From NCBI RefSeq assembly GCF_008065115.1, contig NZ_CP042913.1:3095827-3159826 (forward strand): a stretch of 64,000 nucleotides of DNA, in the 5' to 3' direction. The DNA comes from Bythopirellula goksoeyrii. Lineage in GTDB: Bacteria > Planctomycetota > Planctomycetia > Pirellulales > Lacipirellulaceae. The notes beneath the pieces were generated by a model. It worked only from the letters and a program-made list of their open reading frames with translations, did no database searches and was not told where the DNA came from. Shown here in pieces: positions 23,557-58,424 of this stretch (position 1 is the stretch's first letter; every line of letters starts with the position of its first letter). The translations under genes and the position numbers were made by a program.

Positions 23557-23660
23557 CCCCGCCCCGCCTAGCAAGCGTTTCCCAATTCGTCAGCATCTAG
23601 CGAATTTGTTAGCCGCCACGCGCCTGCCGATTTTCACGAGGCGCGAGCGGAGCTCGTCGA

Positions 23661-24147
23661 TGGCCCAAAAATCGTTGTGGCATTTCTCCTGTGCATCTCG
23701 ATAATGGAGCTTGCCACCTGCCAGGCAAGTTCGCTAGCTCGACTTGCACATGTTTGCTGATCCGAACAGCCGAGTTTGTTCACTGAATCGGGTCGGCGCA
23801 GTGTAGGTCCAGGGATTGGGAAAGGCTGATTGGTCGAGGGTTTTGTTTTCAAAACCCTTCCCCGCCCGAGTCGTGGTGATTCGCGTAAGTCTTAGCAGGT
23901 AAACGAGTTGCAGCATACTCAATCCGCAACAAAACAGGGGGTTTTGTTTTGTAAGAAAAGTTTTCGACAGAATGTGAGGGGGCAAGCATCCTCCGTCGGT
24001 GCGCAGGATCGAAATAGAATCATGAGCTTTCCACCATCCCCGTTCAGCCGCGCCCCGCTGCCGAGCCTCACGAGGCGAAAGGGAAGCGATTCCTCGAGCT
24101 GGCCCAAAAATCGTTGTGGAAGCCAACCACTCCTTCCGCGATAATGG
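23661..24147 (+). repeat. Composite interspersed repeat, copy A
   Basis: The element has three parts in order. A leader module runs from TGGCCCAAAAATCGTTGTGG (23661-23680) to GATAATGG (23699-23706). A 198-base core (23838-24035) runs from a hairpin GGGTTTTG-TTTT-CAAAACCC to GAGCTTTCCACC. A second leader copy lies at 24100-24147 with the same 20 bases and the same GATAATGG end. The core recurs at 57272-57470 on the other strand at roughly 75-80 percent identity by eye, and leader modules flank that copy in the same order. Short frames inside it are not convincing genes. Confidence 0.85.
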
Positions 24148-24223
24148 GTTCGTATTAGAGCCTGAACATTCCTTGATATTGGAATAGTGCCCGTCCCGAC
24201 GTGCGGCCTAAACCATAGATTCC

Positions 24224-24291
24224 TCTCGCAGAGACGTGGAGACACAGAGAAGAATTAAATCCTTTATCTGCATCTCCGCAACTCTGCGAGA
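24224..24291. repeat. Inverted repeat TCTCGCAGAG / CTCTGCGAGA
   Basis: Ten-base arms at 24224-24233 and 24282-24291 are perfect reverse complements, separated by 48 bases rich in purines with degenerate octamers of the GCAGAGAC type. It sits between repeat copy A and the importer genes. It may be another dispersed repeat family; no T-tract follows. Confidence 0.55.
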
Positions 24292-24326
24292 ACCTAGTTA
24301 GTAAACATGGAAGTGAAAGCATAATC

Positions 24327-25310
24327 GTGAGGAAGAAGAGACCATCGAACAAGAACATGACTGGTATCTCCCAGAGTGAAGTTCGCGCAGGGCTGGCGAT
24401 GGTTAGCCCTTGGATCGTTGGGTTTGCCGTCCTCACGCTCTATCCATTTCTCGCTTCGTTCTATTGGAGCTTTTGCCGCTACGACTTGCTCAGCGAACCG
24501 AAATGGGTGGGACTTGCCAACTATCGCCGCATCTCGGGAGAAGTTCTCTCGGGCGGTACTTTGGCACAGGCGATTGGCAACACCGTTTACTACGCTGTCC
24601 TAAGCGTTGGCTTCTCAGTAATCCTGGGCGTCTTGTTGGCAGTCATGCTCTCTTGGGAGGTTCGAGGCAGGGCCATCTTTCGCACACTCTGCTATTTACC
24701 ATCTGTCGTGCCAATTGTAGCTGCCGCGGTGTTGTGGATGGCGCTGCTTGATCCGCAGCAGGGTCTCATCAATGGCATCCTGGCGCAGTTGGGGATTCCT
24801 GCACAGGGATGGTTTCAGAGCACGAGCTCAGCCCTCTGGCCCCCGGCTTGGCCTGTCGATCACGCTGGACGAATTTTTGGCTCGAAAGACGGGCTAGTGC
24901 TGATGGGCGTTTGGGGCGTAGGAAACTTGCTCGTAATCTATCTGGCCGCCATCACCGAAATTCCTCGCCAGCTTTACGAGGCGGCCGAGTTGGATGGTGC
25001 AGGCCACTGGCGGCAATTCTGGCATGTGACACTTCCCATGCTTTCACCAGTAATTTTCTTCAATGTGGTCGTGGGCTTGATTCACTCCGTACAAGCGTTT
25101 ACCCAAATCTATCTGGTAAGCGATGGCCAGGGCGACCCTGCAGGAGCCACGCTGACGCTGTCGCTCCATTTGTTCCTCGCGGCATTCAAGGAACTCGATA
25201 TGGGATACGCTTCGGCAGTGGCTTGGATGTTGTTCGTGGTTATTCTCCTGATCACTATTTGGCTCTTTCGTACCTCGCATCGCTGGGTGCATCACCAAGG
25301 AGCCGCGTGA
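24327..25310 (+). CDS. Sugar ABC importer permease, MalF type
   Basis: The protein of up to 327 residues has about six membrane helices and the EAA loop EAAELDGAGHWRQFWHVTLP near residue 215, which docks onto the ATPase. The first helix, VSPWIVGFAVLTLYPFLASF, is typical of MalF/UgpA-type permeases for sugars or sugar derivatives. It starts at GTG 24327, or at ATG 24360 within the same frame. The binding-protein gene begins right at the stop, so this is the first gene of a three-gene operon. A stretch near residues 155-190 is longer than in close relatives and may be a periplasmic loop. Confidence 0.92.
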   Translation: MRKKRPSNKNMTGISQSEVRAGLAMVSPWIVGFAVLTLYPFLASFYWSFCRYDLLSEPKWVGLANYRRISGEVLSGGTLAQAIGNTVYYAVLSVGFSVILGVLLAVMLSWEVRGRAIFRTLCYLPSVVPIVAAAVLWMALLDPQQGLINGILAQLGIPAQGWFQSTSSALWPPAWPVDHAGRIFGSKDGLVLMGVWGVGNLLVIYLAAITEIPRQLYEAAELDGAGHWRQFWHVTLPMLSPVIFFNVVVGLIHSVQAFTQIYLVSDGQGDPAGATLTLSLHLFLAAFKELDMGYASAVAWMLFVVILLITIWLFRTSHRWVHHQGAA

Positions 25311-40250: not shown

Positions 40251-40332
40251 TGGGGATGACAGGAGTTGAACCTGCACTCCCGAAGGAACTGGAACCTAAA
40301 TCCAGCGCGTCTGCCAATTTCGCCACATCCCC
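40251..40332 (-). tRNA. tRNA-Leu (anticodon TAG)
   Basis: The minus strand from 40332 to 40251 folds as a class II tRNA. The acceptor is GGGGATG with its complement CATCCCC, the anticodon stem CTGGA/TCCAG has the loop TTTAGGT (anticodon TAG), and there is an extra arm and a T-arm with GTTCAA. It reads CUA and related Leu codons. The CCA end is not encoded. Confidence 0.95.
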
Positions 40333-56562: not shown

Positions 56563-56580
56563 ATCGCTCTGCGTCAGGTG

Positions 56581-56760
56581 GTTAGTGGTTAGTGGTTAGT
56601 GGTTAGTGGTTAGTGGTTAGTGGTTAGTGGTTAGTGGTTAGTGGTTAGTGGTTAGTGGTTAGTGGTTAGTGGTTAGTGGTTAGTGGTCAGTGGTCAGTGG
56701 TCAGTGGTCAGTGGTCAGTGGTCAGTGGTGAGTGGTGAGTGGTGAGTGGTGAGTGGTGAG
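56581..56760 (+). repeat. Tandem heptamer block (GTTAGTG/GTCAGTG/GTGAGTG)
   Basis: The 180 bases are 15 exact copies of GTTAGTG (56581-56685), then 6 of GTCAGTG (56686-56727), then 4 of GTGAGTG (56728-56755) and a partial copy. The blocks differ only at the third position. This is a heptanucleotide tandem array of the kind that changes copy number easily. It is not a CRISPR array, because there are no spacers. Confidence 0.95.
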
Positions 56761-56996
56761 CAAGCGGTCATTGGAAATTGGATGAATCTTTTTCATTTCT
56801 GCGCACCGTTGGGGTGTTGTTGTCTTGCTGCGTTTCTCGGAAATCGAAAATCCAAAAAAGAATTAATTCATTTCGCCAGCCACGAATTGCCACAAATCGT
56901 TGTGGAGTAGCGACTTGCGAAAACGCCTCCTTCTCACGTTTTTGGAGTTTTTGAAAAAGAACCCCACCAAACTTGTCGCTGCTTAGTCTTCAATCG

Positions 56997-57637
56997 TGCC
57001 AAAGTAATGCAGCGCGCAAACCTAGCACGAGCAAACCCGTGAGACTCTGCGGGCGCTGGTGCGTTCTTAGGACTTCTAGCATGCTCCATTATCTAGATGC
57101 CAGGGAGGAAATCTACAACGATTCTTGTGCCAGTTTGTGGGGGACTGGGATCTGGGGCTAAGAACTTGGATAAGTGTAAACAGTACGTAACCACTACTCT
57201 TCCCCAGCCCCCAGCCCCTGACTCCCAACCCCCTCTAAAGTCGAAAGCCAGACTTGTCAGGCCGTGCGAGCGGTGGAAAGCTCATGATTCTTTTTCGATC
57301 CTGCGCACCGCAGGTGGTCTTTTGTCCCCGCACATTTTGTCGCAAATCTTCTCTACAAAACAAAACCCCCTCTCAATCTGTCGGTCCGGTGGGCTTCAAC
57401 TCGTTGGCCGATCAAGACTTACGCAAATCACGTTGCCTCGGGGACGGTAAGGTTTTGAAAACTAAACCCCACGAATCTAGCCGCTAATTGCTCGTCCAAA
57501 TCGCCAAACTCGTTCAGCGCGCGGACCTAGCGCGAGCAAACCCGCAAGACTTTGTGGGCGATAGTGTGTTCCTATTACATATCGCACGTACCATTATCAG
57601 GATGCCTGGGAGAAATTCCACAACAATTTTTGGGCCA
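56997..57637 (-). repeat. Composite interspersed repeat, copy B
   Basis: Read on the minus strand the order matches copy A: a leader module (57637-57591, TGGCCCAAAAATTGTTGTGG to GATAATGG), a 199-base core (57470-57272) and a second leader (57132-57086). Each leader here is followed by a shared extension of about 80 bases with GGGTTTGCTCG and CTAGG, at 57497-57590 and 56997-57085. Heptamer-like tracts (GGGACTG at 57141; CCCCAG-rich at 57200-57236) are wedged between core and second leader. Remnants may reach 56790 and 56892. Confidence 0.85.
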
Positions 57638-57695
57638 AGCTGAAAACAGCCGCGCAGCGACCATTGGCTAGCCGCGAACGTTAGTGACCGGTCCA

Positions 57696-58424
57696 GTAAA
57701 AGGGGACATTCTACTTTTCGTTCGTGGTGATTCGTGCTAGAATGCTTCTATGCCAAGAACTGCCAGAGCGTCGTGCGGTGGGTATCTCTACCATGTCCTC
57801 AACCGGGGCAATGGCCGGCAAGAAGTCTTTCATAAGACTGGCGACTACTCCTCTTTCGTCGATCTGATGGTTGCGGCCAACGAGCGGTTGCCCATGCGGC
57901 TGGTCGGCTACTGCCTGATGCCCAATCACTTCCACTTATTGCTGTGGCCGTTAGAAGATGGAGACCTCAGTCGTTGGATGCAGTGGCTGATGACTTCGCA
58001 CGTACGCCGCTACCATCGCCATTACCCTGGCAGTGGGCATGTGTGGCAGGGCCGGTTCAAGGCGTTTCCCGTGCAAGACGACGAACACTTCTGGACCGTG
58101 TTGCGATATGTCGAACGGAATCCATTGCGGGCAGGCCTGGTTCGGCGTAGCCAGGACTGGGACTGGTCGAGTTTGAAGCCGATAAGCAATCCGCCGGGCT
58201 TGCTGGCGGAGGGGCCGTTGGTCAAATATCGTGGTTGGACGAATTATGTCAACGGAGTAGAAAATTAAGCGGAGCTTGCCGCCCTGCGCCAGTCGACGGT
58301 CCGGGGTGCCCCCTTTGGGGAGGAGAAATGGCGAGTTCGCACCGCCAAGTCCCTGGGGCTGGAATCCTCACTTCGGCCCCGCGGCCGACCCCGTAAGCTG
58401 AAAAAGTAGAATGTCCCCTTTTAC
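57696..58424 (+). mobile_element. REP-associated transposase unit with 23-bp inverted ends
   Basis: The sequence begins at GTAAAAGGGGACATTCTAC (57696) and ends with its exact reverse complement at 58402-58424, giving 23-base perfect arms. Between them lie one transposase gene and a GC-rich 3' stretch. No target duplication is expected for this family. Confidence 0.75.
57750..58268 (+). CDS. REP-associated tyrosine transposase (RAYT, IS200-like)
   Basis: The 172-residue protein has the Y1 transposase core: GYLYHVLNRGNGRQEVF at the start, LVGYCLMPNHFHLLLWP with the HUH-like His pair, then YHRHYPGSGHVWQGRFKAF and the YVERNPLRAGLV segment with the likely catalytic Tyr. RAYT proteins are domesticated relatives of IS200 transposases. 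Characterised members act on REP palindromes near their own genes. Here the gene is flanked by perfect 23-base inverted repeats and sits just after repeat copy B, which makes it a candidate mover of repeats in this genome; that link is inference. Confidence 0.95.
   Translation: MPRTARASCGGYLYHVLNRGNGRQEVFHKTGDYSSFVDLMVAANERLPMRLVGYCLMPNHFHLLLWPLEDGDLSRWMQWLMTSHVRRYHRHYPGSGHVWQGRFKAFPVQDDEHFWTVLRYVERNPLRAGLVRRSQDWDWSSLKPISNPPGLLAEGPLVKYRGWTNYVNGVEN

Follow-up and report, generated by a model that had tools for sequence, protein, structure and literature searches.

A dispersed family of non-coding repeat units with promoter-like heads in Bythopirellula

Two copies of a composite repeat

Does a short sequence that recurs in a fixed order with a longer core mark the ends of a mobile element, or is it a signal belonging to each copy of the core? 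The question was raised by a locus in Bythopirellula goksoeyrii, a planctomycete from the deep sea, whose genome consists of a single contig of 6,473,141 bp. The window referred to throughout is the whole stretch of 64,000 nucleotides that was analysed (genome positions 3095827-3159826). A preliminary description of it reported two 20-base leaders, TGGCCCAAAAATCGTTGTGG, spaced 439 bases apart and each followed by GATAATGG, on either side of a core at 23838-24035; the same architecture was reported at 57.0-57.6 kb, and the leader-core-leader order was taken to indicate a mobile or copied unit. The features that we now recognise, in window coordinates, are as follows.

23661..24035, plus strand: copy A, a full type I unit of head, 5' hairpin, core and terminal block (alignment, multiple alignment and a tail-model match at genome positions 3119761-3119860)
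23661..23707, plus strand: head of copy A (the "leader"), promoter-like, with GTGGCA-17-GATAAT at 23677-23705 (box conservation over 42 heads)
23709..23730, plus strand: 5' hairpin GCTTGCC-ACCTGCCA-GGCAAGT, just past the -10-like box (-10.5 kcal/mol, z -2.0 in copy A)
23838..23857, plus strand: core hairpin GGGTTTTG-TTTT-CAAAACCC (sequence and alignments)
23936..24035, plus strand: conserved tail of copy A, from the GGGGGTTTTGTTTTG block to the GGTGCGCAGGATCG terminal block (tail profile match, R1 search)
24100..24147, plus strand: second head of copy A, isolated and with no core behind it, 180 bp upstream of an ABC-transporter permease ORF at 24327-25310 (Pfam BPD_transp_1)
57271..57637, minus strand: unit 1 of copy B, type I (pairwise and multiple alignment, tail profile)
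56772..57132, minus strand: unit 2 of copy B, type II, in tandem behind unit 1 (tail profile, R1 search)
57670..57691, minus strand: CCGGTCAC module, lying upstream of copy B; it is a distinct repeat, frequently found ahead of heads (22 genomic places with no more than two mismatches)

Both leaders of copy A are exact, at 23661 and 24100, with GATAATGG at 23700 and 24140, and the core opens with the 8-bp perfect hairpin originally described. The perfect hairpin is confined to copy A, copy B having GGGTTTA..CAAAACCT instead. The likeness of the two loci was borne out by cores that are 77% identical over 202 columns (E 9e-36), but copy B lies on the minus strand, so that the order of modules is kept only in copy B's own orientation; its leaders are found at 57618-57637 (one mismatch) and 57113-57132 (three mismatches). 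What did not survive is the leader-core-leader arrangement as a unit, since the second leader proved to head a neighbouring tandem unit, and a single tail match was found at 47 of the 52 loci. In copy B this second leader is followed by a full, more divergent core, and in copy A by none. Judged from its sequence, every "leader" forms the promoter-like head to a separate unit of approximately 370 bp, and a single mobile unit bounded by two leaders was rejected because the second of them heads a unit of its own. Immediately behind unit 2 of copy B there is a tandem heptamer array (56578-56760) in which GTGGTTA passes into GTGGTCA and GTGGTGA; heptamers of the ACCACTGACC type, similar to this array, are present behind many other units.

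Size, types and distribution of the family

A blastn search of the B. goksoeyrii genome with 23661-24150 (490 bp) gave 57 matches, the best other match having an E value of 1.2e-52, in agreement with the earlier view that the arrangement is not due to chance. The copied unit was also upheld, as nucleotide searches of the genome and of relatives, together with pairwise comparison, revealed many copies with a conserved order and sharp ends. Nineteen aligned copies have a mean pairwise identity of 76%, and 18 of them are 370-372 nt long and occupy the same columns, copy A being 380 nt. R1, a sequence model that covers the final 103 nt of the unit and was built from 37 copies, has at least 57 matches in B. 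goksoeyrii at E<=1e-3, at no fewer than 52 loci when matches less than 1.5 kb apart are joined, although the weakest of these may be fragments or chance; there are at least 30 matches in B. polymerisocia. Among the R1 matches listed, both units have the same orientation at all five two-unit loci. Most loci that appeared to hold a solo leader actually contain divergent cores.

Three types of unit were distinguished by eye, namely type I (copy A and unit 1 of copy B), type II (unit 2 of copy B) and a heterogeneous type III, which is presumably the ancestral type. The copy at 2502461 is a hybrid whose 5' half is nearest type I and whose 3' half is nearest type II. Copy B can be aligned with the locus at 4787920 over 945 columns at 90% identity, both tandem units included.

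When R1 was run with stricter filters over 147 relatives, the matches listed came only from the two Bythopirellula species, with none in the other 145. A blastn search with a B. goksoeyrii unit gave matches in 7 of 97 relatives; those beyond the two Bythopirellula species span 24-48 nt, and one of them (in G019) is to the head. A B. polymerisocia locus gave matches in 20 of 43 family genomes, but those outside the two species are short and nearly all lie in the query's final 50 nt, beyond the unit, and were therefore not counted. An exact 19-mer from the tail occurs at 8 loci in a collection of genome contigs, four of them in B. polymerisocia, all with the tail, and four in other phyla, none of which matched any of three profiles at E 0.01; the 19-mer does not occur in viral contigs. 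Twenty B. polymerisocia loci were compared, by tblastx of masked flanks of about 2 kb, with sampled stretches of B. goksoeyrii, and at least 4 of the 20 appear, as judged from coordinates, to be syntenic with a B. goksoeyrii copy, two of these four cases depending on one match each, of 91 and 102 aa. Among the papers listed in literature searches on Bythopirellula, on planctomycete repeats, small RNA or MITEs, on RAYTs and on boxA with CRISPR, none was seen to name this repeat family.

Ends and surroundings of the units

Pairwise comparison of 25 head loci places the beginning of homology mostly at base 1 of the head and its end at about +365 to +374. Subsets of the B. goksoeyrii copies have in common a 55-nt CCGGTCAC module, some of whose 22 genomic places are without a unit, or longer upstream stretches. 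Five copies in B. polymerisocia have a common left boundary, about 321 nt ahead of the tail, and in others of that species the shared sequence extends further upstream. According to a simple ORF caller, 49 of 71 units face a convergent gene past their 3' end and 22 a co-directional one; the gene on the 5' side has the same direction in 39 and the opposite direction in 32. There are no terminator-like sites in 23560-24330 (0.7 expected), and inspection by eye of the sequences downstream of units found no common terminator; many B. polymerisocia copies have a common CCCGGCGGATGCTTTATCCGG-like hairpin downstream.

No obvious partner gene was apparent among the ORFs at 64 loci, where the largest clusters consist of the units' own frames; a kinase-like family (assigned by eye) is found at four of these loci, an IS-like transposase at two and a RAYT family at two. 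At the loci L009 and L013, 873 bp that are 100% identical and include a transposase-like ORF lie approximately 130 and 75 nt upstream of a unit, and from their sequence are probably a recent insertion sequence.

Promoter-like heads and boxA

The heads consist of two conserved boxes, with an identity over 42 heads of 0.90 for box 1 (TGGCCCAAAAATCGTTGTGG) and 0.96 for box 2 (GATAATGG), compared with 0.67 for the spacer between them. A consensus promoter scan of 23560-24330 (771 bp) gave a single site, against 0.3 expected, and this site lies in copy A's head; its -35-like hexamer, GTGGCA, is poor, which was counted against the reading as transcription units. The 5' hairpin has a mean z of -0.66 (43 of 45 heads), and is thus weak as a family feature.

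A model of the head, R2, has at least 49 matches in B. goksoeyrii, at least 12 in B. polymerisocia and matches in at least 8 more of 117 genomes. Heads without a core are located before protein genes in G019 and, less clearly, at L235. The G019 head, the best match outside the two Bythopirellula species, is separated by 26 nt from the co-directional ORF that precedes it and is followed by a hexapeptide-transferase frame; the GTG start of this frame was picked by eye, and there is also a longer ORF that opens at an ATG further upstream. The L235 head is situated between RNase III-like and methyltransferase frames, the latter of which continues in another frame, so that the gene may be broken. 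The second head of copy A may, from its sequence and position, represent a third coreless head before a protein gene, the ABC-transporter permease. In the heads of other genera at the L207, L209, L216 and G037 loci, GATAATGG is replaced by TAGGTTCGA, and several have the inverted repeat GGCCAAA..TTTGGCC.

Most of what is known of boxA antitermination comes from rRNA operons, CRISPR arrays and phage. The single 16S match in B. goksoeyrii has TTGACA..TAGAAT and TGCTCTTTGACAATTCGG upstream, in the rRNA leader, and the units of ancestral type possess, behind the head, a boxA with the same core as this rRNA boxA. Of 76 unit sequences, 19 contain the pattern CTTTGA[ACT]AA[CT], at a distance of 108-262 nt upstream of the tail. 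Behind heads, a loose pattern was found in 11 of 57 contexts and a strict one in 5 of 57, versus 0 of 46 controls for each. In other genomes, where 18 of 19 head matches were examined, boxA follows 7 of the 18 (in G011, G024, G034, G036 and G038), compared with 1 of 518 (strict) and 4 of 518 (loose) control windows from the same loci. The bodies behind these heads differ, and many contain inverted repeats, such as GTTTTGCGCC..GGCGCAAAAC in G024 and TTGCCCCAAC..GTTGGGGCAA in G037, an observation made without a control set. The pattern CTTTGA[ACT]AA[CT] does not occur on either strand of the 64-kb window, and no such boxA accompanies those units of types I and II in which a head was recognised, copies A and B included. 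The succession of promoter-like head and boxA is a property of the ancestral type and of heads in other genomes, and not of the two types in the window. As a sequence signal, boxA behind heads is the strongest evidence pointing to a transcribed, untranslated RNA, and it comes from relatives of the window copies instead of from these copies themselves.

RNA structure

Covariance, which the preliminary description had named as a finding that would favour an RNA, is weak, and the strand of copy A fares no better in this respect than the opposite one. Consensus folding of 18 copies gave double changes in 8 of 65 pairs on the copy A strand and in 14 of 64 on the opposite strand. The corresponding column-shuffle z values are -2.7 and -3.65 for 38 copies of both species, -2.0 and -3.3 for 17 B. 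polymerisocia copies, and -1.0 and -0.1 for 21 B. goksoeyrii copies. RNAalifold predicted no pair in the 37-copy tail, and a structure of the unit drawn by hand showed mixed pairing. Alternative pairings exist, since the arms GGGTTTTG and CAAAACCC occur twice per unit. Overall the evidence for an RNA fold is mixed.

At the gathering threshold of Rfam 15, the window contains only one match, a tRNA (40251-40332, minus strand), and none to the units or to rRNA. A search of nine unit loci at E values up to 2 gave five matches, all below the gathering score (four microRNA families and one Whalefall-1) and none of them to rRNA. Membership of an Rfam 15 family was consequently rejected for the window and the nine loci.

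A putative family of transcription units, and alternatives to it

We lean, with modest confidence, towards reading these sequences as a dispersed family of multi-copy non-coding transcription units that would originally have had rRNA-type antitermination. The copies look like genes for non-coding RNA, given that a promoter-like head is followed in related copies by an rRNA-type signal. We infer that the "leader", a candidate promoter of two conserved boxes around a free spacer, would be where RNA polymerase begins, and that the transcript would be an untranslated, hairpin-containing RNA of approximately 330 nt, with a presumed function of its own, ending at the conserved GGTGCGCAGGATCG block; the putative transcript would reach as far as the GGTGCGCAG block. 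As the boxA of the ancestral type has the rRNA boxA core, Nus-factor antitermination would allow read-through of untranslated RNA and of tandem units. The units may have multiplied by whole-block copying, tandem duplication and recombination between copies, and the second, coreless head at copy A may have come to serve as a promoter for the downstream ABC-transporter gene. The fixed length despite 76% identity, the co-orientation of tandem units and the convergent 3' genes of 49 of 71 units were counted in favour of such transcription units; the weak, strand-unspecific covariation, the lack of boxA in the type found in the window and the lack of a terminator-like site were counted against them.

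It is possible, if rather doubtful, that the units are instead selfish or inert DNA repeats with an incidental promoter, whose copies spread and decay and whose RNA, if any, would be functionless. Many divergent and mosaic copies (for example that at 2502461), a truncated copy (the second head of copy A), the weak covariation and the fact that most B. polymerisocia loci were not found to be syntenic are in keeping with such repeats. They sit less well with a near-constant length at 76% identity, with conserved boxes around a free spacer, with a position apparently kept between the two species at no fewer than 4 of 20 loci and with the retention of head and boxA across genera. As a short non-coding unit with many copies and defined ends, the repeat resembles a MITE, but this classification was rejected, as neither terminal inverted repeats nor target duplications were detected in 27 units. 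The mean score for terminal inverted repeats was 6.1, versus 5.7 (sd 1.2) for shuffled sequences, and the longest common word in the flanks had a mean of 3.6, versus 3.7 for mismatched flanks, the right end of the unit being fixed only to about 10 nt in this direct-repeat test.

A transposon-like unit mobilised by a REP-associated tyrosine transposase (RAYT) is unlikely. A RAYT gene (57750-58268; Pfam Y1_Tnp; NCBIfam NF047646, 82 bits with a cut-off of 80) does adjoin copy B, on one side only. At one B. polymerisocia locus (L161, approximately 1511-1705) a RAYT fragment (residues 1-51, or 1-67 with one stop) ends where the unit starts; no remaining part of the gene was detected past the unit. 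Y1 matches in the B. goksoeyrii genome, 15 in number with 14 over the cut-off, are also closer to units than expected, with 6 of 15 within 3.5 kb (0.83 expected, P 0.0001, 20,000 simulations) and 3 of 15 within 2 kb (0.48 expected, P 0.01), these distances having been picked after the data were seen. However, the RAYT gene beside copy B is flanked by a different inverted repeat of its own, GGGGACATTCTAC, at 57702 and 58406 (57702-58418), other copies have no flanking RAYT, and the unit is far longer than a REP; RAYT as the mover of the units is thus not supported. The genome has only three exact copies of GGGGACATTCTAC, and the one that does not flank the RAYT gene lies just ahead of another unit, at 5427131.

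It is improbable that the unit is a cis-acting, attenuator-like leader for the next gene, in which the four arms GGGTTTTG/CAAAACCC would pair alternatively: such pairings can be drawn and copy A does precede an ABC-transporter gene, but 49 of 71 units have a convergent gene past the 3' end. A protein-coding repeat on the opposite strand, with open frames of 117-130 aa in copies A and B, was rejected as very improbable, for although there are antisense ORFs at 23734-24126 and 57097-57450 and related frames at many loci, as DNA similarity would predict, codon-position values of 0.119, 0.138 and 0.136 indicate no bias and only 3 of 19 copies have any of the six frames free of stops.

Returning to the family of putative non-coding transcription units, a wider proposal can be put forward tentatively. 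The Lacipirellulaceae may possess a promoter and boxA cassette from which a new class of non-coding RNAs is launched; these RNAs would be fast-evolving, multi-copy and antiterminated in the manner of rRNA, with the head conserved across genera and the RNA body, rich in inverted repeats such as GTTTTG..CAAAAC, replaced in each lineage. If this is true, dozens of dispersed boxA-type units per genome, with no Rfam 15 match, would constitute a new use of the antitermination machinery, and would provide a natural test of how promoter-carrying repeats persist. A recognisable promoter-like motif is now available for these bacteria, and the locus illustrates that a repeated "leader" can be a probable promoter instead of a transposon end.

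Comparison with known systems

To judge from the available parts of the published accounts, the closest described kind is QMITE1 of Coxiella burnetii, which is approximately 300-400 bp long, is present in about 50 copies, carries a promoter, yields small RNAs and is partly conserved in position (PMC5896051). The Bythopirellula unit is similar in size and copy number, has a promoter-like head and is likewise partly position-conserved. QMITE1, however, is bounded by terminal inverted repeats (21-28 nt), has short direct repeats and has been demonstrated to be transcribed (PMC5896051), whereas the Bythopirellula unit had neither kind of repeat when tested and is a putative transcription unit. boxA is present in the ancestral-type units, and none is mentioned for QMITE1 in the part of PMC5896051 that was available.

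REPs, as far as the available text of PMC3733652 goes, are dispersed, palindromic and largely intergenic sequences of 20-40 bp with a GTAG or CGTC tag, which are also found in Planctomycetes. The Bythopirellula unit resembles REP and BIME sequences in being dispersed, palindromic, largely intergenic and sometimes beside a RAYT gene, but at approximately 370 bp, and with a promoter-like head, it falls outside the REP range when judged by length.

In rRNA operons and CRISPR arrays, as described in the available part of PMC7862264, a promoter and boxA are followed by an untranslated RNA. The Bythopirellula units differ from these transcripts in having no rRNA match and many dispersed copies, and types I and II have no boxA, but the ancestral-type units have the same succession, a promoter-like head and then a boxA whose core is that of the organism's own 16S leader.
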